The position numbers and the translations under genes are program-made. A stretch of DNA of 38,817 nt. Origin: a bacterium. Its GTDB lineage: Bacteria > Ratteibacteria > UBA8468 > B48-G9 > JAFGKM01. This document shows positions 2,585 to 21,008 of this stretch, in pieces. Under the pieces are notes generated by a model. It was not told where the DNA came from. It saw nothing but the letters and a program-made list of their open reading frames with translations, and searched no databases. Location of the stretch: assembly GCA_026414725.1 (NCBI GenBank), contig JAOAIL010000012.1, forward strand, positions 1-38,817, given 5' to 3'. Position 1 is the first letter of the stretch, and every line of letters starts with the position of its first letter.

Positions 2585-3211
2585 ATGGATTACAGGGTTG
2601 GAATAATCAATTATGGGGCAGGTAATATAAGAAGTGTTTATACTTCAGTAGTTGCATGTGGAGGGTGTCCATTCATTATAGAGAAGGCAGATGACCTCAA
2701 TAAAGTAGATATTATTATACTTCCTGGGGTAGGTGCTTTTGATGATGGAATTAAGGGACTTTTCAAAAAAGGCATAAAAGATGTGCTTATAGAAGAGATA
2801 AATAATGGTAAGCCATTCCTCGGAATATGTTTAGGATTACAATTGCTCTTCTCTTATAGCGAAGAAGGAGCTTGTAAAGGACTGGATATTATCAGTGGTA
2901 AGGTGAAAAAGTTAAGGCTTGATAATAGATTTAAAGTTCCTCATATGGGATGGAGCAGGGTAAATCTTGTAAATCCAGATAATCTTTTATTTTCCAATAT
3001 TGGTGATAATAGATATTTTTATTTTGCTCATTCCTATTATGTAGAACCGGATGATATTTCCACTGTTGGGGGGAGAACTGAATATGGCATAGAGTTTACA
3101 TCCTTTGTAAGAAAAGATAATATAGTAGGCATTCAGTTCCACCCTGAAAAGAGTGGAGATAATGGTATAAGGTTTTTAAAAAATTTTCTGGAGGGAAAAT
3201 GGCTGCGGTAA
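2585..3211 (+). CDS. hisH: Imidazole glycerol phosphate synthase, glutaminase subunit HisH
   Basis: HisH hydrolyses glutamine and channels ammonia to HisF in histidine biosynthesis. The 208-residue protein is a class I glutamine amidotransferase of normal length. The catalytic triad is visible as Cys82 (in GICLGLQLLF), His186 and Glu188 (in GIQFHPEKSG). The oxyanion-strand sequence is LPGVGAF. The start shows no Shine-Dalgarno sequence. A TAATTT hexamer ends 7 bases before the ATG, so a leaderless transcript is possible but weakly supported. The 3' end overlaps hisF by 13 bases, which implies coupled translation of the two subunits. No other his genes are nearby. Confidence 0.96.
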   Translation: MDYRVGIINYGAGNIRSVYTSVVACGGCPFIIEKADDLNKVDIIILPGVGAFDDGIKGLFKKGIKDVLIEEINNGKPFLGICLGLQLLFSYSEEGACKGLDIISGKVKKLRLDNRFKVPHMGWSRVNLVNPDNLLFSNIGDNRYFYFAHSYYVEPDDISTVGGRTEYGIEFTSFVRKDNIVGIQFHPEKSGDNGIRFLKNFLEGKWLR

Positions 3212-3957
3212 GGATTATTCCATGTTTGGATGTAAAGGATGGTAAGGTTGTTAAAGGAGTACACTTTGAAAATTTAAGAGAGGCAGGGGACCCTGTGGAA
3301 CATGCGGACTTTTACAGTAAGGAGAATGCTGATGAAATTGTATTTTTAGATATCAGTGCTACTATTGAAGGTAGAAAAACGATGGTGGATGTAGTCAGGA
3401 AGGTATCGGAAGTTGTTTTTATACCTATGACAGTTGGTGGTGGAATAAAAAGTATAGAAAATATAGAAGAACTTTTAAAAGCAGGAGCAGATAAGATTTC
3501 TATAAATACATCTGCTGTAAGAACCCCGGAACTTATAACAGAAGGGGCAAAGAAGTTTGGGAGTCAATGTATTATAGTGGCTGTTGATGCCAAACGGTTA
3601 GGTAGTGATAAATGGGAAGTTTATGTAGAAAGTGGCAAAACACCTACAGGAATAGATGTAGTAGAGTGGGCTAAAAAAGTTCAGGATTTAGGAGCAGGAG
3701 AAATCCTTCTTACAAGTATAGATATGGATGGAACACAGGAAGGATACGATATAGAACTTACAAGGAAAGTAGCAGAAAGTGTTAATATCCCTGTTATTGC
3801 ATCAGGTGGTGCAGGAACTCTTGAACACATGTCAGATGTTATAATCAATGGTAAAGCAAGTGCAGTCCTTCTTGCTTCTCTACTCCATTTTAGAAAATAT
3901 ACTATCTCTCAAATAAAAAATTTTCTCAAAAACAAAGGTATTGAAGTCCGGCTCTAA
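3199..3957 (+). CDS. hisF: Imidazole glycerol phosphate synthase, cyclase subunit HisF
   Basis: HisF is the (beta/alpha)8-barrel cyclase that condenses PRFAR with ammonia to give imidazole glycerol phosphate and AICAR. It works as a heterodimer with HisH. The 252-residue protein has the two catalytic aspartates at their usual positions, Asp11 (IIPCLDVKDG) and Asp130 (IIVAVDAKR). It also has the phosphate-binding motifs TVGGGI and ASGGAG. The start lies inside hisH and is preceded by GGAGGG, a good ribosome site. The ELM1-like glycosyltransferase gene begins 2 bases after the stop, so histidine and glycan genes probably share a transcript. Confidence 0.97.
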   Translation: MAAVRIIPCLDVKDGKVVKGVHFENLREAGDPVEHADFYSKENADEIVFLDISATIEGRKTMVDVVRKVSEVVFIPMTVGGGIKSIENIEELLKAGADKISINTSAVRTPELITEGAKKFGSQCIIVAVDAKRLGSDKWEVYVESGKTPTGIDVVEWAKKVQDLGAGEILLTSIDMDGTQEGYDIELTRKVAESVNIPVIASGGAGTLEHMSDVIINGKASAVLLASLLHFRKYTISQIKNFLKNKGIEVRL

Positions 3958-7065: not shown

Positions 7066-8098
7066 TAAAAGACCGAGTGGTCCTAACAGACAGCTTTTAG
7101 AATATGGTAATTATCTGTACTCAAAAGGGCATAATGTTTCTGTTATAAAACCGGTCAGAAGAAGGTGTCCAAAGAATAGAAAAGATATTATTGAGATGAA
7201 ATTGGCAGAGATTGCTCACTACATTTCCGGAAAAAGAATAAGAGAAATTAAAAAATTACCCTGGATAGATGTTAGATGTCCGGTTAAGATTATTCCCTCA
7301 ATCGATGAGAAATATCTTGATTCTGCTGACATATTATTTTTTTCTATGCAAGCATCTCTCCCTCTGGTTGAAAAACTTTCTGAAAGATGTGGTAGAAAGG
7401 TAATGAGGGTATGTTCCGTTATCTACGCTGAAAATGTTGATTGCATCCCTGAAAATGTGTATATTGTTGCAATTTCATCTATTGTTAAGCAAATACTTGA
7501 GAAACAGTTAAAAAGAGAGATTTTTCTTTTACTTAATGGTGTTAATACTGGAACTTTTTATAACTCTATAAAAAGAAAGGAGCCAAAAACGATAGGAATG
7601 GTATATTATCCGAGTAATAAATATAAAGGAATGAAAAATGGTTTCTGGGTTATGGAGCAACTTTATATGAGATATCCATCACTAAAGTTCCATGTCATAG
7701 GAGAATGGGCAGAAAAAGACATTCCTCCTTTTGTAAAATTTATAGATGGGAATACAAGGGATAATTTAATAAATTTTTATAAAACCACAGATATTCTCAT
7801 ATTCCCAAGTGAAAAGGAAGCATCTCCTAATCCTCCTATGGAGGCAATGGCATCAAGGTGTGCTGTTGTTACAACAGAGGTAGGGGGTATTTCTGACTAT
7901 ACTATTCCCGGTAAGACAGCAATTGTAGTCAAGATAGGAGATAGAGAAGGACTTTTGAGAGGGGTCATAAACCTTATTGAAAATAATGAATACTTTAGAA
8001 CAATATCAGAAGAGGGCTACAAAAAAATTCAGGATTTCAGTGTAGAAAAACAGGGAGAAAAACTTGAACAGATTTTATTTGAGATTTTGAAAAGATAA
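7037..8098 (+). CDS. Glycosyltransferase family 4 (GT-B)
   Basis: This 353-residue protein is a retaining GT-B glycosyltransferase. Its C-terminal domain has the E-x7-E region FPSEKEASPNPPMEAMA (about residues 255-271), then TTEVGGISDYT, which binds the nucleotide-sugar diphosphate. The N-terminal acceptor domain opens with a GPNRQLLEYGNYL stretch, as expected for the glycine-rich first loop. It sits directly after the two GT9 genes and overlaps the second by 29 bases, so it likely adds the next sugar of the core. Its 3' end overlaps by 24 bases the 3' end of the convergent deacetylase-like gene. Donor sugar unknown. Confidence 0.85.
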   Translation: MKINILCSIDKRPSGPNRQLLEYGNYLYSKGHNVSVIKPVRRRCPKNRKDIIEMKLAEIAHYISGKRIREIKKLPWIDVRCPVKIIPSIDEKYLDSADILFFSMQASLPLVEKLSERCGRKVMRVCSVIYAENVDCIPENVYIVAISSIVKQILEKQLKREIFLLLNGVNTGTFYNSIKRKEPKTIGMVYYPSNKYKGMKNGFWVMEQLYMRYPSLKFHVIGEWAEKDIPPFVKFIDGNTRDNLINFYKTTDILIFPSEKEASPNPPMEAMASRCAVVTTEVGGISDYTIPGKTAIVVKIGDREGLLRGVINLIENNEYFRTISEEGYKKIQDFSVEKQGEKLEQILFEILKR

Positions 8099-9043
8099 TA
8101 ATATTTTCCAGTTTATAACCTTACCTTCTAATATACTCAAAAGTTTTCTGAGGGATTCATATCTGTCATTTATCTCTCTTGTCCAGTGTATAACAACAGG
8201 TAATATCACACATCTTTTTATTGACATAATATCAGAGCTTTTTATTGCTTTCACCAATCCGCTACACCGTTGATAGCTGGATAAAGGTCTATAAGAAGGG
8301 ATATATAAAGCACCCTCAAAATATGAAGGAGATACCTTATATCCTAAATATTTAGCAGATTCAGGTCCTCCTGTAATAATTTTAAAGTATTTTGAAAGTC
8401 CTTTATAAGAAGTTAAATCAACTTCGTCAAAGGGTGGAATAAAGGCAGTGGGATTTATATCAACTTCTCTGAGTATCTTTAACCCTTTTTCTATCTTTTC
8501 TTTCACCTCTTTCTCTTTCAGACCCACAAATTCCTGGTTCCTCTTAGGATTGTTTGTTTGATGTGTAAATCCATGCATAGCAATCTCTATTAAAGGATGC
8601 TTTATTATTTCTACTTCTTTTTCTTCTAATATTTTAAATCTATTGTTAAACGGATTATGTCTATCTAAAGAAAGGTATGGTGTTACACCTAAGAGATAAG
8701 GTGTTTCAAACTCTTCCATAATAGAATGGAATCTTTTGAAGTCATCTATTGATTTTTCCCAGTGAGGAAAGTCATCTACCCTTATAAGAAACATTGGCTG
8801 TCCTTCTTCCTCATCTGTCCCCTTAAATCTACAGAATCTCTCCCGTATGTTAAAGATATAACTGAGAAGATGATTTAACTGCAATGTTTTGTATTTTTTC
8901 AGGTTATAAAGTAATCGCCAGAGAGAGAAGGGAGAGATAAAGTCAATGGAGAATTCAAAAATTTTTAAAAACCTCTCTATCTCCTCCTCATTTTCATAAA
9001 TTCCATTTAACACGAACTTTAATGTATAAACTTTTTCTTTCAT
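8075..9043 (-). CDS. DUF2334 polysaccharide deacetylase-like protein
   Basis: DUF2334 proteins share the NodB-type (beta/alpha) barrel of polysaccharide deacetylases. In the 322-residue product the metal-binding aspartates appear at VDDFP (Asp90-Asp91), and the histidines at MHGFTH (His157 and His161). FIPPFDEVD (201-209) matches the usual substrate-groove motif. The ATG at 9043 is preferred over the ATG at 9088. It has a GGGG ribosome site, while the longer form would read through the 9051-9071 palindrome and into the divergent gene. It is the only - strand gene of the glycan locus, so it may be controlled separately. No signal peptide is visible. A cytoplasmic or membrane-surface deacetylation of a glycan intermediate is inferred. 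Confidence 0.75.
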   Translation of the reverse strand: MKEKVYTLKFVLNGIYENEEEIERFLKIFEFSIDFISPFSLWRLLYNLKKYKTLQLNHLLSYIFNIRERFCRFKGTDEEEGQPMFLIRVDDFPHWEKSIDDFKRFHSIMEEFETPYLLGVTPYLSLDRHNPFNNRFKILEEKEVEIIKHPLIEIAMHGFTHQTNNPKRNQEFVGLKEKEVKEKIEKGLKILREVDINPTAFIPPFDEVDLTSYKGLSKYFKIITGGPESAKYLGYKVSPSYFEGALYIPSYRPLSSYQRCSGLVKAIKSSDIMSIKRCVILPVVIHWTREINDRYESLRKLLSILEGKVINWKILLSFQNLK

Positions 9044-9050
9044 ATTTCCC

Positions 9051-9071
9051 CTGTGATAAAATTTATCACAG
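9051..9071. promoter_or_regulatory. Perfect 21-bp palindrome between divergent genes, putative operator
   Basis: CTGTGATAAA and TTTATCACAG form perfect 10-base arms around one central A. The site lies between the starts of the divergent deacetylase-like (9043) and P-loop kinase-like (9089) genes, where an operator would control both. TGTGA and TCACA are CRP half-site words, but they are 9 bases apart and not the usual 6, so CRP itself is doubtful. A one-base loop makes an RNA hairpin function unlikely. Confidence 0.6.
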
Positions 9072-9088
9072 CAAAAGAGATATGCCAA

Positions 9089-9775
9089 ATGGATAGTTTC
9101 AAAAGACCTTTAATTATTGACCTGTCAGGTAAGGCAGGAGCAGGTAAGACATATGTGAAGGATAAACTAATTCAATATCTTTCACCTGGATATAAATGTG
9201 TTGACCTTTCTGATTATATCCTGACTGAAAAGGACTTTTTAGATTTTGTTATTTCCAGACCAGTGTCTTTCTTTTTATCTATCCTGTTTGTCCTTCTTTT
9301 TATCCCTAAGGGATACAGATGGATGTGTACCTGTTTGAGGTGGTGGATTAAGATGCAGATAATGATAATAAAGGGCAAATCATTAAAATGTGATTTTGTA
9401 TTTATAGATGAAGGGCTGTTTAGAAGAATAAGTTTAATAAGGATGTATTCCTTCAGGAGAGTTCTTTTTGAAAATATCCCTGTATTATTCAGAAAACACT
9501 TTCTTTATCCGGATATAACTGTATTTGTAATGGCGAATTATGATATGTGTGAAAAAAGAAGGATGGAAAGAGATAGAAATACAAACAGATTTAAACTTCC
9601 TGGTAACAAAAGAAAGGGTTTGATAATTATAGATGACCTGGGAAAAGATATTGATTATGCTGAAAAAACAGGGATTGTTAAGGTTTTAAGATACAATAAC
9701 GAAAGAGAATTTGAAATGTCAGTGTTAGCAGAACTATTAAGAATGAAGGATGGGATATGCCGAAAGTATCAGTAG
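9089..9775 (+). CDS. P-loop kinase-like protein of unknown substrate
   Basis: A Walker A motif, GKAGAGKT, lies at residues 14-21. FVFIDEG near residue 105 could serve as Walker B. A thymidylate-kinase-like stretch, PDITVFVMANYDMCEKRRMERD, with a basic lid region follows. The 228-residue protein therefore looks like a small-molecule or nucleoside-type kinase. A strongly hydrophobic segment (about 53-73, FVISRPVSFFLSILFVLLF) between them is unusual and suggests membrane contact. The ATG at 9089 is chosen over a GTG at 9053, because the GTG lies inside the operator-like palindrome and has no ribosome site. It overlaps the next GT2 gene by 19 bases. The substrate could be a sugar, lipid or nucleoside. 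No named family is recognised. Confidence 0.6.
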   Translation: MDSFKRPLIIDLSGKAGAGKTYVKDKLIQYLSPGYKCVDLSDYILTEKDFLDFVISRPVSFFLSILFVLLFIPKGYRWMCTCLRWWIKMQIMIIKGKSLKCDFVFIDEGLFRRISLIRMYSFRRVLFENIPVLFRKHFLYPDITVFVMANYDMCEKRRMERDRNTNRFKLPGNKRKGLIIIDDLGKDIDYAEKTGIVKVLRYNNEREFEMSVLAELLRMKDGICRKYQ

Positions 9776-10668
9776 TGATACCACTTTATAACAAGGTAAG
9801 ATATATAGGTAGAGCGGTTGAATCCATATTAAGTCAGACGATGCAGGATTTTGAGTTAATCGTGGTTAATGATGGTTCTACAGATGGGAGTGAGAGGGTG
9901 GTGGAGGGTTATAAAGATAGCAGGATACGGATTATACATAGAGATAGTCCATCACCTGGGGGACATAAGGCGAGGAATGAAGGGATACGAAATGCGAAAA
10001 GTGATTTAATAGCATTTCTGGATGGAGATGATGAGTGGAGGGAAAGTTTTCTTGAGACAGTGTTAAGGTTAAGGGCGAGATTTTCTTCTGCAGGGGCATA
10101 TGCAACAGCGTATGAAGAGAGAGAAGGGGAGAAGATAAAGGTGCCTAAGTTCTGGTATATACCTGAAGGTGATTGGGAGGGGATAATACCTGACTATTTT
10201 AAGAGTTGTGTATATGGGACATCACCTGTATGGACAGGGGCAGTTGCTGTACCTAAGGGGGTATTTGAAGAGGCAGGATATTTTCCTGAAGGGGTGAAGA
10301 AGGGAGGAGACCTTGATATGTGGGCTCGTATTGCATTAAGGTATCCGATTGCATTCAGTAGGTATGTGGGGGCGGTATATTATAAAGATATTCCTGGGTC
10401 AGTTATAAAGTTGCATAAGGTTTTAGAAGGGTTTAAGGTAGTGGATACACTGGAAGAGTATTTAAGAAACAATCCTGATATTCCAGAAAGAAGAAAAAGA
10501 TATATAATAGAATATGCAAACAGGTTCAGATTGAGTTCTGCTTCACACTGTATTAAGGCAGGAGAGATTGAGTTAGCAAAGGAACATCTTAAAAATTGCC
10601 ACACAAGAAGGTTTATTATAAGGAAGTTGTATCTTCAGTTGAAAATAGTTTGGGGTGGTAATTTATAA
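9757..10668 (+). CDS. Glycosyltransferase family 2 (GT-A)
   Basis: This 303-residue inverting GT-A enzyme has the nucleotide-binding N-terminus VSVVIPLYNK, the VVNDGSTDG motif (residues 37-44) and the metal-binding DGDD (89-92). KKGGDLDMWARI later supplies the acidic acceptor-site motif. It has no transmembrane segment, so it acts at the cytoplasmic membrane face on a lipid-linked glycan. GGATGGGAT before the ATG is an acceptable ribosome site. Base use differs from its neighbours: the coding strand is visibly rich in G, with many GGG, GTG, GAG and AGG codons. For example, 30 of 60 bases are G or C at 10201-10260, against 16 of 60 at 11521-11580. This hints at recent acquisition. Confidence 0.88.
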   Translation: MPKVSVVIPLYNKVRYIGRAVESILSQTMQDFELIVVNDGSTDGSERVVEGYKDSRIRIIHRDSPSPGGHKARNEGIRNAKSDLIAFLDGDDEWRESFLETVLRLRARFSSAGAYATAYEEREGEKIKVPKFWYIPEGDWEGIIPDYFKSCVYGTSPVWTGAVAVPKGVFEEAGYFPEGVKKGGDLDMWARIALRYPIAFSRYVGAVYYKDIPGSVIKLHKVLEGFKVVDTLEEYLRNNPDIPERRKRYIIEYANRFRLSSASHCIKAGEIELAKEHLKNCHTRRFIIRKLYLQLKIVWGGNL

Positions 10669-10678
10669 GGAAAAAGCA

Positions 10679-10804
10679 ATGAAATTTATTTACTTTATAG
10701 TTGTGATAGTTTTGCTTAAAATCAATACAAAATCTATACATGGGTGTATAGAAATATCAAGAAATGATGATATGCTTTTTAGAGATATTAGGAACGAGAA
10801 ATGA
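10679..10804 (+). CDS. Small membrane or secreted peptide, 41 residues
   Basis: A short ORF fills the gap between the GT2 and the next GT4 gene. Its ATG follows an AAGGA ribosome site at a spacing of about 7 bases. Its TGA overlaps the next ATG as ATGA, the coupling used throughout this contig. The product begins MKFIYFIVVIVLL and continues with a polar tail ending RDIRNEK, so it has one hydrophobic helix or a signal peptide. It resembles no family I know. It could be a real small membrane protein, a translational-coupling leader, or a degraded gene remnant. Confidence 0.45.
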   Translation: MKFIYFIVVIVLLKINTKSIHGCIEISRNDDMLFRDIRNEK

Positions 10805-11946
10805 GGATAGCAATTGACTGTAATAGTATGGGAGAAGAAAGAACGGGGATTGGCTGGTATATATACTATCTTATCGGGAATCTTGTAAAGATTGATAAAC
10901 AAAATTACTATTTATTTTTTGATATTGCATCACGGGGTTATAAAGAAAAATACAATAAAATCAAATCTTATATCCCTGACCAGGAAAACTTCCAAGCAAG
11001 AATATACAGATTCCATTCGTATATAGGAAGAAAATATCTGCCTGTTGAATTATTTACTGGAAAAGTTGATATACTGCATAGTTATGACCATTCACAGGTT
11101 CTTTCTACTACATTTAAGGCAAAAAAAATTGTTACTGTTCATGATATTATTCCTTTATTACCTGAATTCAATGAAAAATTAAATTTATTGATGCCTGAAG
11201 AATGCAAAAGAGGAAGAAAATTCTTGAAGGAAGTAATACGGAAATCTGATAGAATTATAACAGTGTCAAATGCCGCAAAGGATGATATAGTAAAATACCT
11301 ATCTGTAAACCCATCAAAAATCAGTGTTACACATTTAGGTAAGGATGAAATATTTTATCCACGTGAAATTAATAAAGGTATTCTTAATAAATATAAAATT
11401 TTAAAAAGGTTTATTCTTACTTCCCCTGTTTATCCTTCCCGTAAAAATTTTGCAAGAATACTTTTATCTTTTGAAAAGATAAGAAAGAACAATAATTGTC
11501 AGTTAGTTTCATTTGGAAAGGTTAAAAAATATGGTGAATGGTATGCTATTTTTAATAGATTACCTGATTCTATAAGGGAAGATATTATATTTCTTGGCTA
11601 CATTCCTCATACAGAACTTCCTTATCTTTACAGTTCTGCTGAGTTTTTCATATATCCTTCCCTTTATGAGGGGTTTGGACTTCCACCACTTGAGGCAATG
11701 TCTTGTGGTTGTCCTGTAATAACTTCCAATACATCCTCTCTTCCAGAAGTGGTAGGAGATGCAGGTATTTTTATAGACCCTTATAATGTAGATGAGATGG
11801 CAGAGAATATGGAGAGATTGCTTACAGATGAGAAATTGAGAGAGCAGTTAAGGACAAAAGGGTTAGAAAGAGCAAAGCAGTTTACATGGGAGAAGACAGC
11901 GAGGGAAACACTTAAAGTATATGAAGAGGTGTATAATGGAAAATAA
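10801..11946 (+). CDS. Glycosyltransferase family 4 (mannosyltransferase-like)
   Basis: This 381-residue GT-B protein opens with [18 protein letters not shown], the glycine-rich loop typical of GT4 mannosyl- or rhamnosyltransferases. It contains [10 protein letters not shown] and HSYDHSQVL in the acceptor domain. Its donor domain has the canonical [16 protein letters not shown] (about residues 284-299), with both motif glutamates, and then [15 protein letters not shown]. The whole layout resembles WbdA/WbaZ-type enzymes of O-polysaccharide synthesis. The start is fixed by the ATGA overlap with the small ORF upstream. The end overlaps the next GT2 gene by 11 bases. Sugar specificity cannot be told from the sequence. 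Confidence 0.88.
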
Positions 11947-12781
11947 AAACAATCCATTAGTAAGTATAATTATTCCTGTATATAACAGAGCAGAATTATT
12001 ACCGAGAACACTTAAGAGTGTTGTGAACCAGACATATAGAAACATTGAAATAATAGTTGTTGATGATGGGTCAGATGAGGATATAAAAATTATCTGTGAT
12101 AGATTTAATGACCCGAGAATAAGGTATATAAGACATACTGAAAATAAAGGACTTCCATCTGCAAGGAATACAGGAATAAGGATGTCAAAAGGTGATTTTA
12201 TTACCTTTCTTGATTCAGATGATGAATATATACCAGAAAGAATTGATAAACAGGTAAAGTTCTTTACAGAAAATAGAGATATACAGGTTGTATACTGTAG
12301 TGTATTAGAAGAGAAAAAGGGGAAACAGTATTTAAGGAAAATAATAGGAGACAAATGGTTTGTATGGGTTCACCAGATTATGCTTAAAAAGGAAGTTATT
12401 GAAAAAGTAGGTTTCTTTGATGAATCTTTTATATCGTTGGAAGATGTTGATTATGTATATCGGCTCAGAAAATTCTATACATTCGGATTTATTGATGAAC
12501 CGTTGTTAATATACCATAATACACCGGGGTCTTTAGGTAAAGATATTGAAAAAAGGAATAAGGCAAGGGAATTATTTATTAGGAAACATAGAACTACTTT
12601 AAGCCGTAGGTCTATAAGCAAGATGTTATATAGTGCAGGAAAAGATTATCTCACTTTGGGTAAAGTGAAAAAAAGCATAAACTGTTTTTCAAGAGCATAT
12701 TTTATATATCCTTTGAATCAACAGGCATTAAGAAAGATGATTAAAACACTTCCTTTAATCTTGAAGAGTAAATTCCGATGA
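11936..12781 (+). CDS. Glycosyltransferase family 2 (GT-A)
   Basis: This 281-residue GT-A protein contains LVSIIIPVYNRAE at the N-terminus, VVDDGSDE (DDGS at 43-46) and the DSDD metal site (93-96). EDVDYVYRLRKF lies later, in the place of the acceptor-site ED motif. The ATG at 11936 is chosen over one at 11921, because GAGGTG sits just upstream at a suitable distance and the protein then begins as GT2 proteins usually do. The C-terminus is a helical, tetratricopeptide-like tail with no membrane segment. It overlaps the next gene by 4 bases (ATGA). It probably extends the same glycan as its GT4 neighbours. Confidence 0.87.
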   Translation: MENKNNPLVSIIIPVYNRAELLPRTLKSVVNQTYRNIEIIVVDDGSDEDIKIICDRFNDPRIRYIRHTENKGLPSARNTGIRMSKGDFITFLDSDDEYIPERIDKQVKFFTENRDIQVVYCSVLEEKKGKQYLRKIIGDKWFVWVHQIMLKKEVIEKVGFFDESFISLEDVDYVYRLRKFYTFGFIDEPLLIYHNTPGSLGKDIEKRNKARELFIRKHRTTLSRRSISKMLYSAGKDYLTLGKVKKSINCFSRAYFIYPLNQQALRKMIKTLPLILKSKFR

Positions 12782-13905
12782 AAGTACTTTTTATAGCAGG
12801 ATGGTTTCCTGAAGGTGGAAATTATAGTGGTATATTTATAAAGGAACATGCACTCGCTGTATCAAAATTTTGGGATGTTGCAGTTATACATGGAAAGGGT
12901 GTAAAGTGGCAGAGAACAAGATACAGGTCTTCTTTTTCAGATGAAGATGGATTAAAAATTTTAAGATTTACATATAGAGAAATTCCTTTATTACCTTCTT
13001 ATTCCAGTTATATAAAAGGGATTATACTCAGTTTTGAAAAATTTTTGTCAGATGGTTTTAAACCTGATATTATACATGCCAATATATATAAAACAGGTGT
13101 GCCTGCCTGTATAATAAAAGAAAGATATGGTATCCCATATGTTATCACTGAACACTATTCAGGTTACGCACGGAAGACAATGAATAAGAAGAAATTAAAA
13201 ATTGCGCGGCTCGGTATGGAAAATGCTGATTTGGTTCTACCAGTAAGTGAGTCCTTAAAAAATGATATTTTTTCTTATGGTATCAAAGGTAATTTTGAAA
13301 TAATTCCCAATACAGTTCCTGATTATTTTAATTGTAGTTCTGATATAAAAAATAAATCATATATAAAGAGAATTTTGTGTGTTGCGGCTATGCATCCTAA
13401 GAAAAATATACCTGTTCTTATAAATGCCTGTAAAGTCCTGCATAATATCCGACAGGACTGGGAACTTAATATAGTGGGTGAAGGTGAGAGATTGGAAGAG
13501 TATAAAAAGATGGTTCATGATTTTTCTCTTGATAAGTTTATCCATTTTCTTGGTGGAAAACAAAAAACAGAGATAGCATCTATGATGCAATCATCCGTAT
13601 TTTTTGTCCTGCCAAGCAAATTTGAAAATCTTCCGTGTGTATTATTAGAAGCATTATGTTGTGGATTATCTGTGGTTGCTACAAAAGTTGGGGGAGTACC
13701 GGAAATAATAAATGATACCAATGGAATTCTTGTAGAGCCAGACAATCCTGAAGCACTTGCAAAAGCAATGTTATATATGCTGGATAATCCAGAGAAATAT
13801 AACAGACAGAAGATATCTTATGAGGCAAGAAATAAATACTCTTATGAGGTAGTTGGGAAACGGATAGTGTCAGTATATGAAAAGATACTTCAACACCAAA
13901 ACTAA
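12778..13905 (+). CDS. Glycosyltransferase family 4 (GT-B)
   Basis: This is a 375-residue GT-B glycosyltransferase. The N-terminal VLFIAGWFPEGGNYSGIFIKEH is typical of the exopolysaccharide/teichuronic-acid GT4 subfamily. VITEHYSGY lies near the domain centre. The donor domain contains AAMHPKKNIPVLI and the paired-glutamate segment FENLPCVLLEALCCG, followed by ATKVGGVPEII. The start is an ATGA overlap with the previous GT2 gene and the end overlaps the next gene by 29 bases, so it belongs to the same operon. No signal peptide or membrane helix is present. Donor and acceptor are unknown. Confidence 0.88.
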   Translation: MKVLFIAGWFPEGGNYSGIFIKEHALAVSKFWDVAVIHGKGVKWQRTRYRSSFSDEDGLKILRFTYREIPLLPSYSSYIKGIILSFEKFLSDGFKPDIIHANIYKTGVPACIIKERYGIPYVITEHYSGYARKTMNKKKLKIARLGMENADLVLPVSESLKNDIFSYGIKGNFEIIPNTVPDYFNCSSDIKNKSYIKRILCVAAMHPKKNIPVLINACKVLHNIRQDWELNIVGEGERLEEYKKMVHDFSLDKFIHFLGGKQKTEIASMMQSSVFFVLPSKFENLPCVLLEALCCGLSVVATKVGGVPEIINDTNGILVEPDNPEALAKAMLYMLDNPEKYNRQKISYEARNKYSYEVVGKRIVSVYEKILQHQN

Positions 13906-14923
13906 AAAATATAGAGAAACTTTGAAAATGATATTTCCTTTTCTTATGATTTTTTTGAAACACCCGTTTAAAACAATAAGATATGCTATAAGTAATGTAA
14001 AGATAAGAAAAGATACTGTTAAAATCTTGAAGTACCAAAGATTATGTAGATTGAAAAAAGATATAAAACCAGTTTATTTCTTTGGTCCTTATAAATCCAT
14101 TTCTTTTAAGTTAGGTGGTTCATATATACTTGAAGCATTGAGACAGTCAGGCATTAAGGCATATTCAGGTTATTATACCAATGTTGATAGTATCTACGAT
14201 TCTATAGTTGTAATTGTGCAGAGGATATCTGAAGAAATTGATGTTATGAAATTGAAAAAAAACGGAAATAGGATAATTTTTGATATACATGATGCTTACT
14301 GCCTGTGGAAGGAAGAGACATACAGATTGATAGACATTGCCGACTTTATTATTTATCCAAACAGAACATTAGTAGATGAAATTTCAAAAGATAAGAAAAA
14401 AACATATACAGTTCTATATGGTTATGCAGACCCTGCTATTTATATCCTGTTTAGAGAGAAGAAATATAAAAATTTTGATACAATTAAATGCTGCTATTTT
14501 GGATATAAGAGAAATGCGGAGATGAAGATATTGAATAAGCTACAAAAAGAGATATCTCTGACTCTGCTCCCCTCTTCGTTAGAGAGTATAAAAAAACTTA
14601 CTGATTTTAATATGCATATAGATGTAAGGAAAGATAAAGTAAAGGATGATATATTATATAAGCCACTTACGAAAATACTTATTGCTGCTGAATGTAATTC
14701 TAATATAATTGTTGAAAAGACACCGAGAACTCTTGAGATATTACCAGAGGATTACCCATTTTTTATATCAAAAGATAAAATAGAAGAAGATATAAAAAGA
14801 ATAAAATCATTATTTGGGACAGAAAAATGGAGATATGGGTTATCTGTAATGGCGGATATTCGCAATAAATATACATTCAGTTACCATTTACAGTCATTTA
14901 TAAAAATACTGGAGGGACTATAA
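13877..14923 (+). CDS. Unrecognised protein, possibly a divergent GT-B glycosyltransferase
   Basis: I do not recognise this 348-residue protein. Its layout is that of a GT-B fold. An N-terminal Rossmann-like half contains KPVYFFGPYKSISFKLGG and NRIIFDIHDAYCLWKEE. A linker and a C-terminal half follow, with KPLTKILIAAECNSNIIVEK, where GT4 enzymes bind the nucleotide. The usual E-x7-E motif is not evident. The first 45 residues are basic and hydrophobic (MIFPFLMIFLKHPFKTIRY), suggesting membrane attachment. An ATG at 13928 is an alternative start, and neither start has a good ribosome site. It is followed by a TAATG overlap with the oxidoreductase gene, so it sits in the operon of the unusual trio. 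Confidence 0.5.
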   Translation: MKRYFNTKTKKYRETLKMIFPFLMIFLKHPFKTIRYAISNVKIRKDTVKILKYQRLCRLKKDIKPVYFFGPYKSISFKLGGSYILEALRQSGIKAYSGYYTNVDSIYDSIVVIVQRISEEIDVMKLKKNGNRIIFDIHDAYCLWKEETYRLIDIADFIIYPNRTLVDEISKDKKKTYTVLYGYADPAIYILFREKKYKNFDTIKCCYFGYKRNAEMKILNKLQKEISLTLLPSSLESIKKLTDFNMHIDVRKDKVKDDILYKPLTKILIAAECNSNIIVEKTPRTLEILPEDYPFFISKDKIEEDIKRIKSLFGTEKWRYGLSVMADIRNKYTFSYHLQSFIKILEGL

Positions 14924-16215
14924 TGAGAGAGATATATGAGGCATTGAAAGGACTAAAAAAAGAGGTTAATGTAGGAATTGTTGGTTGTGGCTGGTGGGGA
15001 ATTTGTTTTGTAAGTGCTCTTAAAAGATCGGGTTTTATGGTACCACGTCTCCTTATTGATAAGGATATCAATAAATGTAAAAAGGCGTACTTTGAATTTG
15101 GGATTAAAAAAGAAGATATTTTGTATATTGAAAGAACGGAAGATATTAAGAAGATAGATAGATATAAGTATATTGTTGCAAATGATGTAAATTTATTAGA
15201 GGATTTAGAGAAGTTTAATATAGATATTATTCATGAAAGTACAGGTGGTGTTATATCGGGTGCAAAAACAGCCCTTTTTTCTATTGAAAACAAGATTCCT
15301 TTTACAACAATTAATAGTGAAATGGATGCTACCATTGGACTGATACTTTCTAAAAAGGCATTAGAAAAGGGAATTATATATACAAATACAGAGGGGGACC
15401 AGCCGGGCTGTCTTGCAGAGATGATAGATACAGTTATATCCTGGGGATTTGAGCCGAGAATAGTCGGAAATTGTAAACTTTTTCTTGACCATTACCAGAC
15501 ACCTGAAGGAGTAATGCCATGGGTTCCAGAAGGTGGTAATCCTTATTCATACAGCGGCGCTGCAGATGGTTCTAAAATATCTATTGAATTATCAGTTGTT
15601 GCTAATGCTTTTAATTTCCCGCCATTTAAAAGAGGGATGTACGGTCCAGATACAAAGAAAATAGATATAGTAAAGACATTTCATAATCTTATAGACCTTG
15701 ATACTTTATCAGGAGGACATATTGACTATACATTTGGGTCAACAGAGCCAGATATGGGTGGTCCTGTATTTGTGATTGGCTATACTCAAAATGAGCGATT
15801 AAAAGCAGAAATGAAAAATTATAAAAAAGGTATTGGTCCGTATTATCTATTTTTTCGTGACCATCATCTCGGAAGTATTGAAGCACCTTTAACCATAGCA
15901 AAAGCCCTATTTTTTAATAGCCCTTTTCTATCTCCAAAGGTATGGTGTTCAGAGGTTATAACAGTGGCGAAAAGGGACTTGAAAGCAGGGATAAAACTTG
16001 ATGAAATCGGTGGATATGATTATTATGGACTTGTAGAAAAGGCAGACATATCATTCAGAGAAAAAATGTTGCCGTTAGGTTTAGCCAGTTTTGCTACACT
16101 TAAGAGAGATGTTAAAAAAGATGATATTATTACATATGATGATGTAGAACTTGAAGATAACCTTGCTGTTAAGTTAAGAAAGGAACAGGATTTATACTGG
16201 TTCGGTAAGAACTGA
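14923..16215 (+). CDS. NAD(P)-dependent oxidoreductase with C-terminal SAF domain (COG4091-like)
   Basis: The 430-residue protein has a Rossmann fingerprint, VGIVGCGWWG (residues 17-26), a homoserine-dehydrogenase-like middle and a C-terminal SAF domain (about 344-425). The SAF domain is recognised by KRDLKAGIKLDEIGGYDYYG and VKKDDIITYDDVEL, as in sialic acid synthases. This matches COG4091, annotated as predicted homoserine dehydrogenase with a SAF domain. Members occur in sugar metabolism and surface-glycan clusters. The start overlaps the previous stop by one base (TAATG). The ATP-grasp-GNAT gene follows after 11 bases and then a BKACE gene. Together they suggest oxidation of a sugar or amino-acid-like precursor. 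The actual substrate is not known. Confidence 0.75.
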   Translation: MREIYEALKGLKKEVNVGIVGCGWWGICFVSALKRSGFMVPRLLIDKDINKCKKAYFEFGIKKEDILYIERTEDIKKIDRYKYIVANDVNLLEDLEKFNIDIIHESTGGVISGAKTALFSIENKIPFTTINSEMDATIGLILSKKALEKGIIYTNTEGDQPGCLAEMIDTVISWGFEPRIVGNCKLFLDHYQTPEGVMPWVPEGGNPYSYSGAADGSKISIELSVVANAFNFPPFKRGMYGPDTKKIDIVKTFHNLIDLDTLSGGHIDYTFGSTEPDMGGPVFVIGYTQNERLKAEMKNYKKGIGPYYLFFRDHHLGSIEAPLTIAKALFFNSPFLSPKVWCSEVITVAKRDLKAGIKLDEIGGYDYYGLVEKADISFREKMLPLGLASFATLKRDVKKDDIITYDDVELEDNLAVKLRKEQDLYWFGKN

Positions 16216-16226
16216 AGGTCGGAAGA

Positions 16227-17663
16227 TTGGTCGGTATAATTTTATACAATTTATGGGAGAAAATTACGGGTTATAGAGGAGAAAAGAGGCGATTTAAAAG
16301 GGTAACAGGTTATGACCTGAATCTTAAAAATCCCCGTAGTTTCGGTGAAAAAATTGTATGGAAAAAAATTTATGATAGAAATCCTCTTATACCTGTAGTA
16401 GCAGATAAATATAAGGTTAGAGAGTATGTAAAAAGAGTTCTTGGAGTAAAGGAAGCAGAAAATATTTTAGTACCACTTCTTTATGTCACAGATAGACCTG
16501 AATCTATTCCTTTTGATAAACTGCCTGAAGAATACATTATAAAGCCCAATCATGGTTCTGGATGGCATATTATAGTTAAACAGGGGGAGGCATTTATTAC
16601 AAGGAAGGGAAAGAAAATTGAAAAGGGTGAAATTGTCTCACAATGTAGAAAATGGTTGAAAATAACCTATGGGGTTAGGGAGTATGAGTGGGCATATCAA
16701 CCGATAAAGAAGAGAATAATTATAGAGAAAATTATGAAAGATAAGGAAGGTAAATTACCAACGGACTATAAATTTTTTATTATTCATGGTAAGTGTCATC
16801 TTATTCAGGTTATATACAACAGATTTTCTGATAAATCACTTGGTATGTACACACCTGACTGGCAATATCTTAATGTAAAAGGGAAAGCAAAACAGGCCCC
16901 CCCTGATTCAAAACCACCTTCTCTTGAAAAGATGATAGATATGGCTGAGAAATTAGGAGGTCTTTTTGATGCTATCAGGGTGGATTTTTTTCTTGTTGAG
17001 GATAGAATATACTTCAGCGAACTTACAAATTATCATCAGACAGGCTATATTAAATGGGAACCTGTTTCATTTGATTTTGAATTGGGTTCTAAGTGGCAGA
17101 TAGAACCCGGTTACTGGGAAAAAAATGCTTATATAGAAAAATTAGCGAGAGAGATAGATGATGCATGTGATATAATTATAGAGAAAGCAACAGATATAGA
17201 TAGACCTGCTATTATGCGCCTTTTAAAACAGGCAAATATGCACTATATACCTTCACCAGAGATGCCATCTATCACATATGAAAATTACTTTGTGGCACGT
17301 CTTAATGGGAAGGTTGTGGGCTTCTGCGGATATAAAGTTCTTGATTCTACTACAGCAAAGACAGAACTGATGGTTGTAGATAAAAGATACAGAAGCAGAG
17401 GGATTGGTTATAAACTTCAGGTATGTAGAATGGAAGATATGTTTGCAAAAGGGATACAGAGGGTTATAACAAATACTGACCTTCCTGAAACAATTGCATG
17501 GTATAAAAGACATTTTGGGTATATAGAGGTGGGAAAAGTTAAAAAATTACATACATTTGGTGCTCCTGATATAGATTACTGGACTACTCTTGAAGTTGAC
17601 CTGAAAAAATGGAAGGACAGTCAAAATGAAAGAACTATTTCCACATCCTGTCACACCATATAA
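16227..17663 (+). CDS. TupA-like ATP-grasp ligase fused to a GNAT acetyltransferase
   Basis: The N-terminal two-thirds (about residues 20-300) match the TupA-like ATP-grasp family (TupA is implicated in teichuronopeptide synthesis). Markers are NPRSFGEKIVWKKIYDRNPL, YIIKPNHGSGWHIIV and FSELTNYHQTGYIKWEP. The last part (about 310-465) is a GNAT acetyltransferase with the acetyl-CoA loop RSRGIGYKL near residues 388-396 and ITNTDLPETIAWYKRHFGY. Such ATP-grasp enzymes form amide bonds between a glycan or sugar acid and an amine or amino acid. The GNAT part would acetylate an amine. No in-frame ATG exists near the start, so TTG at 16227 is used. CTG at 16212 is a less likely alternative. The end overlaps the BKACE gene by 38 bases. 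Confidence 0.8.
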   Translation: MVGIILYNLWEKITGYRGEKRRFKRVTGYDLNLKNPRSFGEKIVWKKIYDRNPLIPVVADKYKVREYVKRVLGVKEAENILVPLLYVTDRPESIPFDKLPEEYIIKPNHGSGWHIIVKQGEAFITRKGKKIEKGEIVSQCRKWLKITYGVREYEWAYQPIKKRIIIEKIMKDKEGKLPTDYKFFIIHGKCHLIQVIYNRFSDKSLGMYTPDWQYLNVKGKAKQAPPDSKPPSLEKMIDMAEKLGGLFDAIRVDFFLVEDRIYFSELTNYHQTGYIKWEPVSFDFELGSKWQIEPGYWEKNAYIEKLAREIDDACDIIIEKATDIDRPAIMRLLKQANMHYIPSPEMPSITYENYFVARLNGKVVGFCGYKVLDSTTAKTELMVVDKRYRSRGIGYKLQVCRMEDMFAKGIQRVITNTDLPETIAWYKRHFGYIEVGKVKKLHTFGAPDIDYWTTLEVDLKKWKDSQNERTISTSCHTI

Positions 17664-18535: not shown

Positions 18536-19570
18536 ATGGAAAAAATTGCATTGAGGAAAGTTATTGATAAGGATAGATTTAACGAAATTATTGGTAGATA
18601 TGAAAAAACAAAGGTCCTTGTTACAGGAGACCTTATCCTTGATAGGTTTATCTATGGAAATGTATCAAGAATATCTCCTGAAGCACCTGTTCCTGTTGTC
18701 CTTGTTCAGAGAGAAGAACAGATGTTAGGTGGTGCAGGTAATGTTGCACTTAATATTAAGACACTCAATGGTATACCTTTTCTTATTGCTTCTATTGGTA
18801 GAGATAGCAATGGCAAGGTTCTTAAAGATATATTAGAAAAGAATGGTATAGATGTATTTCTTATTGAGAGAGATACTCCTACAACAACCAAAACAAGAGT
18901 AATAGCCAGAACACAGCAGGTTGTGAGAATTGATAGAGAAGAGATTAAAAAACTTATGGATGAGGATATTTTAAAGATAAAAAAAGTTATAGATGAATGG
19001 GGTAAGAATTCTTCAGGTGTGATTATTTCTGATTATAGTAAGGGATTTATTACTAAAAAACTTATAGGGGCATTTTTGAACTATACAAAAAAATATAATA
19101 AAGTTCTAACAGTTGACCCAAAGGTTGAACATTTTCCATATTACAAAAATGTTACCTGTATCACACCTAATAAAGCAGAGGCAAGTGAATTTCTGCATAC
19201 AAAAGAACCAGAGGGAATGGAAGGTATAAAGAAAATAGGAGAGAGCATTAAAAAACGACTTGGATGTGAACATCTCTTGATTACTCTCGGTAAGGATGGA
19301 ATGATGCTTTTTGAAAAGGGAAGAAAGATTATACACATACCTACAGTAGCAAAGGAGGTATTTGATGTAACAGGTGCAGGTGATACAGTAATAGCGGTCT
19401 TTACCCTATCACTTTCAGCAGGGGCTTCTGTGGTTGAATCAGCAATAATATCTAACATTGCAGCAGGTATTACAGTGGCTAAACTTGGAACTGCCTCTAC
19501 AAGTCAAAAAGAGTTGAGGGAAATATTTAGAGAGGTTTTGGAAAAAGAATATGTGAATATCTTACAATGA
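18536..19570 (+). CDS. rfaE1: D-glycero-beta-D-manno-heptose-7-phosphate kinase (HldA/RfaE1)
   Basis: This ribokinase/PfkB-family enzyme phosphorylates heptose 7-phosphate to the 1,7-bisphosphate in ADP-heptose synthesis. The 344-residue protein has the PfkB first motif, VALNIKTL with upstream GGAGN, and the second motif VTGAGDTVIAVF with the catalytic base Asp283. The motif RISPEAPVPVV is typical of the HldE kinase domain. In E. coli this domain is fused to the adenylyltransferase, whereas here the two are separate genes joined by a 4-base ATGA overlap. The gene sits directly behind a strong promoter. The preceding isomerase gmhA and the phosphatase gmhB are not in this window. Confidence 0.94.
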   Translation: MEKIALRKVIDKDRFNEIIGRYEKTKVLVTGDLILDRFIYGNVSRISPEAPVPVVLVQREEQMLGGAGNVALNIKTLNGIPFLIASIGRDSNGKVLKDILEKNGIDVFLIERDTPTTTKTRVIARTQQVVRIDREEIKKLMDEDILKIKKVIDEWGKNSSGVIISDYSKGFITKKLIGAFLNYTKKYNKVLTVDPKVEHFPYYKNVTCITPNKAEASEFLHTKEPEGMEGIKKIGESIKKRLGCEHLLITLGKDGMMLFEKGRKIIHIPTVAKEVFDVTGAGDTVIAVFTLSLSAGASVVESAIISNIAAGITVAKLGTASTSQKELREIFREVLEKEYVNILQ

Positions 19571-20046
19571 AAAAGAAAATAAAGAGTTTTCAGGATATAG
19601 AAAAGATAGTTAAAAGATTGAAGAAGGCAGAAAAAAAAATTGTATTTACTAATGGATGTTTTGATATATTACACAAGGGACATATCCGACTTTTAAAAAA
19701 AGCAAAGTCATTGGGAGATGTTTTAATAGTGGGGCTTAATACTGATAGTTCTGTAAGACGACTGAAGGGAAAAAAAAGACCTTTCTTGAAAGAGAAAGAT
19801 AGGGCAGAAATTCTTTCATCATTGGAGATGGTTGATTATGTGGTGCTTTTTCATCAGGATACTCCATATGAACTTATAAGAATAATCAAACCAGATGTTT
19901 TAGTAAAAGGTGGAGATTACGAAAAAGGAAGAGTTGTTGGTAGAGATATTGTAGAAGGTTATGGAGGTAAGGTCTATATATTTCCTGTGATAAAAGGTTT
20001 ATCAACAACAAAGATAGCGGAGAAAATAAGGAAAGCAGGGATATGA
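19567..20046 (+). CDS. rfaE2: D-glycero-beta-D-manno-heptose 1-phosphate adenylyltransferase (HldC/RfaE2)
   Basis: This nucleotidyltransferase joins AMP to heptose 1-phosphate, giving ADP-D-glycero-D-manno-heptose. The 159-residue protein begins its catalytic core with VFTNGCFDILHKGH, including the HxGH nucleotide-binding motif at His36-His39. It ends with the GLSTTKIAEKI motif, the counterpart of the usual ISTSKI. RPFLKEKDRAEIL and VKGGDYEKGRVVG are conserved family segments. It starts in an ATGA overlap with the kinase and ends in an ATGA overlap with rfaD, so the three proteins are probably made in step. Confidence 0.95.
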   Translation: MKKKIKSFQDIEKIVKRLKKAEKKIVFTNGCFDILHKGHIRLLKKAKSLGDVLIVGLNTDSSVRRLKGKKRPFLKEKDRAEILSSLEMVDYVVLFHQDTPYELIRIIKPDVLVKGGDYEKGRVVGRDIVEGYGGKVYIFPVIKGLSTTKIAEKIRKAGI

Positions 20047-21008
20047 AGATTATACTTACAGGAGGAATGGGGTTTATAGGAAGTTGTTTTTTGAGAAAAC
20101 TAAATGATGTGGGATATACTGATATTTTGATTGTGGATAATCCATCAGATGAAAAAGAAAAAAATGTTGCAGGCAAGAAATTCCGGGATATTGTAGAAAA
20201 AAACAGATTTTTATCCATTATAGAGGACAATAAAATAGAAATACCTGATATTTTGATACATCTCGGAGCATGCACTTCAACAATCAATAATGAATGTGAG
20301 TATATGTTTTACAATAACTATTACTACAGCCTAAAACTTGCAAAGTGGATATTATGTAGGAATAAAAGATTTATCTATGCATCTTCTGCTGCTACCTATG
20401 GAAATGGAGAATACGGTTTTTCTGATGAAGATGAAAACACAAAGAGATTAAGACCACTTAATGTATACGGGGTATCTAAACATCTTTTTGACTTGTGGTT
20501 GATTACCAATGGATTTGTTGATAAAGTGACGGGGTTTAAGTTTTTTAATGTATATGGTCCAAACGAATATCACAAAGAAGATATGAGAAGTGTTGTTGTA
20601 AAGGCATATGAAGAGATAAAGAAAACAGGGAAAAAGAAACTTTTTAAGTCATATAGAAAAGATATCAAAGATGGAGAACAAAAGAGGGACTTTATCTATG
20701 TAAAAGATGTGGTTGATGTAATGATGTTTTTTGTTGAGCATCCAGAAAAGAGAGGGATATATAATTTAGGAACTGGCAAAGCAAGGAGTTTTAAAGACCT
20801 TGTTTTAGCAGTATTTCATTGTTTAAAAGTTCCTCCTGAAATAGAATATGTAGATATGCCTTCTGAGATAGATAGGGATAAGTATCAATATTTTACTCAA
20901 GCGAATATAAGTAAAATAAGAAAAGCAGGTTTTACAGAGGAATTTACAGAACTTGAGGAAGGAGTGAAGGATTATATTGATTACCTGAAAAATGGAATTT
21001 ATATCTGA
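20043..21008 (+). CDS. rfaD: ADP-L-glycero-D-manno-heptose 6-epimerase (HldD/RfaD)
   Basis: HldD inverts carbon 6 of ADP-D,D-heptose to give the L,D form used by heptosyltransferases. It is a short-chain dehydrogenase-like epimerase of 321 residues. It has the NADP-binding TGGMGFIGS (residues 6-14), the SSAATYG serine segment (114-120) and the catalytic Tyr142-x3-Lys146 in YGVSK. NVYGPNEYHKEDMRSVV is a strongly conserved HldD region. The product feeds the two GT9 enzymes at 4997-7065. It is the last of the three-gene heptose operon, and 58 bases separate it from the lipoprotein gene. Confidence 0.95.
   Translation: MKIILTGGMGFIGSCFLRKLNDVGYTDILIVDNPSDEKEKNVAGKKFRDIVEKNRFLSIIEDNKIEIPDILIHLGACTSTINNECEYMFYNNYYYSLKLAKWILCRNKRFIYASSAATYGNGEYGFSDEDENTKRLRPLNVYGVSKHLFDLWLITNGFVDKVTGFKFFNVYGPNEYHKEDMRSVVVKAYEEIKKTGKKKLFKSYRKDIKDGEQKRDFIYVKDVVDVMMFFVEHPEKRGIYNLGTGKARSFKDLVLAVFHCLKVPPEIEYVDMPSEIDRDKYQYFTQANISKIRKAGFTEEFTELEEGVKDYIDYLKNGIYI

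Follow-up and report, generated by a model that had tools for sequence, protein, structure and literature searches.

A TupA-like ATP-grasp domain and a GNAT domain in a single reading frame of a surface-glycan locus

Does the reading frame at 16227-17663 (+) encode one protein in which a TupA-like ATP-grasp amidoligase is continued by a GNAT acyltransferase, and if so, could the two halves work on the same product? The frame lies in a stretch of 38,817 nucleotides, analysed here as a whole and referred to as the window. A sequence-only reading had described one intact frame in which ATP-grasp motifs are followed, from about residue 310, by a GNAT part, and had remarked that the gene has no ATG near its start. 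This description held throughout. The translation comprises 478 codons and a stop, with zero internal stops, and the motifs KPNHGSGWHI, ELTNYHQTGY and RSRGIGYKL are located at residues 106-115, 265-274 and 389-397, respectively. Pfam recovered both domains (ATPgrasp_TupA and Acetyltransf) in the one protein, each above its cut-off and in the same frame. The frame scan yielded no in-frame ATG upstream of residue 170.

With the frame opening at 16209, its sole usable start is the TTG at 16227. Since the frame opens so close by and a Shine-Dalgarno-like GAAGG (16214-16218, +) precedes the codon by 8 nt, we consider it an ordinary TTG start. Codon bias favoured the fused frame in every interval scored between residues 41 and 450, the join included; at residues 281-330 it amounted to 0.44 bits per codon, with negative values in both other frames. 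Such a same-frame bias across the join gives no sign of a frameshift. In-frame start codons are lacking between residue 286 and residue 330, the latter already within GNAT helix 1, which makes separate translation of the GNAT part unlikely. A frameshift or two-gene reading of 16227-17663 was rejected on the basis of coding signal and start codons, and the two halves form, as far as the sequence can show, one polypeptide.

The ATPgrasp_TupA domain (PF14305) spans residues 41-289 (16347-17093, +), with a score of 125.4 bits against a cut-off of 25 (E 3.6e-36) and a match to positions 1-239 of the 241 in the profile. All 15 alignment columns that are invariant across 12 homologues are kept, among them K106, E167, K182, R251, D253, E265 and T267. 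Four close relatives (L012-L015; 47-53% identical) stem from records titled Aminicenantes, Atribacteria, Bacteroidales and Actinomycetes, and all four proteins terminate opposite residue 297-299, with ends such as ...EPGYWKK and ...EPEYWENK. The linker of the fused protein (17121-17159, +) begins where these stand-alone proteins stop. In an AlphaFold model (AF2, five sequences) the TupA core, about residues 61-268, was obtained with moderate to good confidence, and a Foldseek search retrieved D-Ala-D-Ala ligases (E 2.7e-7), the TM being low since the remainder of the chain lacks a usable model. The model thereby predicts a D-Ala-D-Ala ligase-like ATP-grasp fold for the central part of the TupA half. 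As a side observation, L012 and L015 consist of near-identical gene blocks although their records are titled Aminicenantes and Actinomycetes, respectively, and one of them is probably misbinned.

The C-terminal half matches the GNAT families PF00583 and PF13508, and the GNAT domain is placed at 17160-17600 (+), which agrees with the start near residue 310 given in the sequence-only reading. Acetyltransf_1 was found at residues 352-432 with 41.3 bits against a cut-off of 20.7 (E 2.2e-10), and Acetyltransf_7 with 38.1 bits against 27; chance matches of this strength are not to be expected. The acetyl-CoA loop RSRGIG (residues 389-394; 17391-17408, +) conforms to the Q/R-x-x-G-x-G/A pattern, with R-x-x-G-x-G intact. 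One clear relative of this half was found in the sampled genomes, a stand-alone protein of 197 aa in genome G050 (36% identity, E 7.6e-27), which shares the motifs NTDxPExxAWY, GY, KL, FG and WTTxExDL. A profile made from these two sequences matched, among proteins of solved structure, amino-acid and N-terminal acetyltransferases. The G050 gene sits outside any TupA or BKACE neighbourhood; a PaaK-like ligase gene adjoins it on the opposite strand and overlaps it, and was set aside as evidence. The structure prediction that the sequence-only reading had called for thus succeeded for one of the two domains: the TupA centre was modelled as an ATP-grasp fold, whereas the GNAT half scored below 50 (pLDDT 41), since the alignment contained no homologues of this half. 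A Foldseek search with this poor model gave nearly exclusively GNATs among the top matches, but none of significance (E > 0.01). The profile evidence for a GNAT domain is firm, and the GNAT fold is a putative one.

How common is such a fusion? In PF14305 searches of roughly 500 genomes (a narrow sample, partly overlapping and with many loci from one family) no second TupA-GNAT fusion was found among about 60 other TupA loci. Every other TupA frame long enough for a C-terminal GNAT was inspected, and the longer frames in G389, G316, G067 and G130 carry no GNAT tail. TupA genes are absent from all sampled genomes that share the genus, family, order or class of the window. A plasmid search gave 139 matching records, and 88 Klebsiella plasmid records match the query; the matches listed are TupA-only, save one that extends into a neighbouring acyltransferase gene. 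That one, a Lactococcus match covering 81% of the query, was rejected as a fusion, as it consists of a TupA gene and then a separate acyltransferase gene. Phages and viral contigs yielded no TupA-GNAT fusion, the Brachyspira TupA proteins of 433 and 376 aa have no second Pfam domain, and no report of the combination was found in the open-access literature. At the sequence level the fusion is real; it is also rare, and unreported in the literature searched. Known domains are combined in a new way here, within a setting that is itself typical. Since the same fusion was seen in no second genome, there is no conservation to show that it was selected.

The setting is a locus of the lipopolysaccharide-core type. 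The genes, mostly on the same strand, are ordered as an ELM1-like gene, two GT9, GT4, GT2, GT4, GT2, GT4 and a family-less gene, then a DXR-II-like oxidoreductase, the fusion, a gene of the BKACE (beta-keto acid cleavage enzyme) family, an HldE-type kinase, a nucleotidyltransferase and HldD. The last four glycosyltransferase genes (GT2, GT4, GT2, GT4) and the family-less gene (13877-14923) cover 9757-14923 (+). The ADP-heptose genes (18536-21008, +) provide the context downstream: the HldE-type kinase (18536-19570, +) and the HldD epimerase (20043-21008, +), both of which pass their NCBIfam cut-offs, and the nucleotidyltransferase between them (19567-20046, +). A pair of GATase and His_biosynth genes (HisH/HisF-like; 2585-3957) immediately precedes the glycosyltransferase genes, and a DUF2334 gene (8075-9088) lies on the minus strand among the plus-strand glycan genes.

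Two genomes of the same genus, G001 and G002, retain the block hldE kinase - nucleotidyltransferase - hldD - DUF3108. In G001 this block is 67-84% identical and is followed by TsaB, GT4, signal peptidase and GrpE genes. The genes preceding the block in both genomes differ from those of the window and run on the opposite strand, and homologues of the TupA, oxidoreductase and BKACE genes above thresholds were found in neither (G002 being only 54% complete). The absence of the cassette from these relatives indicates that it is variable, as is usual for surface-glycan genes.

Both immediate neighbours of the fusion are enzyme genes. The DXR-II-like (DRL_cat) SAF-domain oxidoreductase (14923-16215, +) ends 11 nt upstream and is a probable partner gene. 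Its homologues (about 35% identity) occur in CDP-sugar or sugar-nucleotide clusters of Deinococcus and Persicobacter plasmids, and DXR-II-like oxidoreductases outside the DXR-II clade could not replace DXR (PMC3847144). Downstream, the BKACE gene (PF05853; 17626-18489, +) shares its first 38 nt with the end of the fused gene. In a tree it groups with the BKACE of G205, G049 and G196 in a clade marked by CVSTSGR (support 100/100), which stands apart from the BKACE genes adjoining Kdd and KamA-like genes, both of these assigned by reading the sequence. Assignment to the lysine-fermentation enzyme (KCE) was rejected, since the score against the NCBIfam equivalog NF052387 (3-keto-5-aminohexanoate cleavage enzyme) was 304 bits, below the cut-off of 382, and the clade is a separate one.

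Other loci of the CVSTSGR clade offer a hint as to its function. In L045 (5345-10062) the BKACE gene has as its neighbours genes for an SDR epimerase, a DegT aminotransferase, an acyltransferase of the NeuD/PglB/VioB family and a GT2; the BKACE, GT2 and SDR matches recur in L046. The BKACE gene of L044 (7035-10242) is accompanied by genes for a methyltransferase, for a GNAT and for another similar protein that has no Pfam match; kinship between this GNAT and the GNAT half in the window could not be detected. These contexts suggest that the clade may make acyl-CoA for sugar acylation, and the position of the BKACE gene beside the fusion suggests that the GNAT half may draw on a donor different from acetyl-CoA.

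What, then, would the fused protein do? We give a probability of roughly 0.5 to the reading that it is a single bifunctional cytoplasmic enzyme which decorates a surface (lipopolysaccharide-type) glycan, forming the amide and the N-acyl group of the same decoration. In the TupA half, ATP would serve to activate a carboxylate on the glycan precursor, most probably that of a uronic acid or sugar acid, which would then be joined to an amine through an amide bond. We infer this chemistry from the TupA-like ATP-grasp enzyme Cj1438C of the C. jejuni capsule, for which amide formation between the C6 carboxylate of glucuronic acid and either serinol-P or ethanolamine-P was shown experimentally (PMC11800379). 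The GNAT half would cap this decoration by moving an acyl group from acyl-CoA onto one of its amines, most simply one that belongs to the amine being attached by the TupA half. The acyl-CoA may come from the BKACE (beta-keto acid + acetyl-CoA giving acyl-CoA + acetoacetate), and a precursor from the oxidoreductase. The sequence-only reading had raised a coupling of amide formation with N-acetylation of the same group or of a linked amine. By analogy, a coupling to N-acylation is plausible: GNAT capping of ATP-grasp products was proposed for other families (PMC4431377), and the making of an acyl-CoA within a cluster for a GNAT was also proposed earlier (PMC2922099). Taken as a whole, the cassette of oxidoreductase, TupA-GNAT and BKACE might even produce an undescribed decoration, in which the TupA half joins an amine to a sugar acid and the GNAT half caps it with an acyl group, not acetyl, that the BKACE makes on site, but this we hold to be rather doubtful; the BKACE and the oxidoreductase could serve a different step.

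Another explanation would be that both halves are active in one glycan pathway but on different residues, the fusion merely securing co-expression without chemical coupling. Surface-glycan loci often contain GNATs for the acetylation of amino sugars; the GNAT half might be one of these and use ordinary acetyl-CoA, with the TupA half forming its amide on a different residue, a uronic acid. TupA domains are moreover promiscuous in their fusions, with GT2 in Cj1438 (PMC11800379) and with RgpF in Brachyspira, and in the window protein a short linker sets the two units apart. Nothing speaks directly against this explanation, yet the overlap of the BKACE gene with the fusion, and the further loci in which BKACE and acyltransferase genes occur together, hint at a linked supply of acyl-CoA, and we regard it as possible though somewhat unlikely.

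That the protein is seen in one genome only, and that the TupA relatives terminate exactly at the join, would also fit a chance event, in which a TupA gene recently lost its stop and came to be read on into the GNAT gene next to it, giving a product of little function, with one half decaying. The coding signal, however, is steady across both halves and the linker, the invariant TupA residues and the CoA loop of the GNAT are intact, and no start codon remains for a separate GNAT, so that we deem such a decaying product unlikely. More improbable still, to the point that we give it very little credence, is an artefact of assembly or sequencing, in which a lost stop or a frameshift merges two genes. 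The source is by its appearance a metagenome-type draft (76 contigs), but codon bias favours one frame on each side of the join, the linker has neither a start codon nor a ribosome site for a second gene, and the GNAT frame offers no other start before its first strand.

Several known systems come close to the fused protein. Fusions of GNAT and ATP-grasp domains exist, such as N-acetylglutaminylglutamine synthetase (Ngg), in which both parts act on one dipeptide product, and the GNAT/acetate-CoA ligase fusions. Like the window protein, these unite an ATP-grasp enzyme with a GNAT within one polypeptide, but they belong to other ATP-grasp families and another pathway, with neither TupA nor a glycan locus. 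The TupA-like proteins of PF14305 (L012-L015, and the teichuronopeptide TupA) are of the same family, but in the relatives compared the protein ends with this domain, where the window protein continues into the GNAT. Cj1438 of C. jejuni is likewise a multidomain protein encoded among surface-glycan genes, but its TupA-like ATP-grasp domain has GT2 as the partner domain instead of GNAT (PMC11800379). In the R2K ATP-grasp/GNAT operons ATP-grasp ligation followed by GNAT capping was also proposed, as a prediction only, but there the genes are separate and the ATP-grasp clade is another one (PMC4431377).

Should both halves act on one substituent, the protein would point to a route in which amide formation and N-acylation are coupled in the decoration of bacterial surface sugars, and would offer a single chain on which such a route can be examined. 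Coupling would also provide a biosynthetic role for a BKACE clade found within or beside glycan or acyltransferase genes in three contexts, and in the undescribed-decoration case a beta-keto acid cleavage enzyme would be feeding glycan acylation. General views of glycan chemistry would be unchanged, as each domain family is already known.

Finally, the searches brought up other arrangements of TupA domains. On the Klebsiella pneumoniae plasmid pLH13-d-A (L079, 4105-5804) a TupA-type ATP-grasp gene lies beside a divergently transcribed GNAT gene, with a Mig-14 gene and a two-component system nearby. A Brachyspira hyodysenteriae plasmid (L080, 167-1996) encodes RgpF (rhamnan synthesis) and a TupA domain in one protein, with two further TupA genes close to it. 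In L075 (G389:C2:72147-73268) the TupA protein of about 440 aa has a partly doubled domain, matching profile positions 1-188 and then 124-240.
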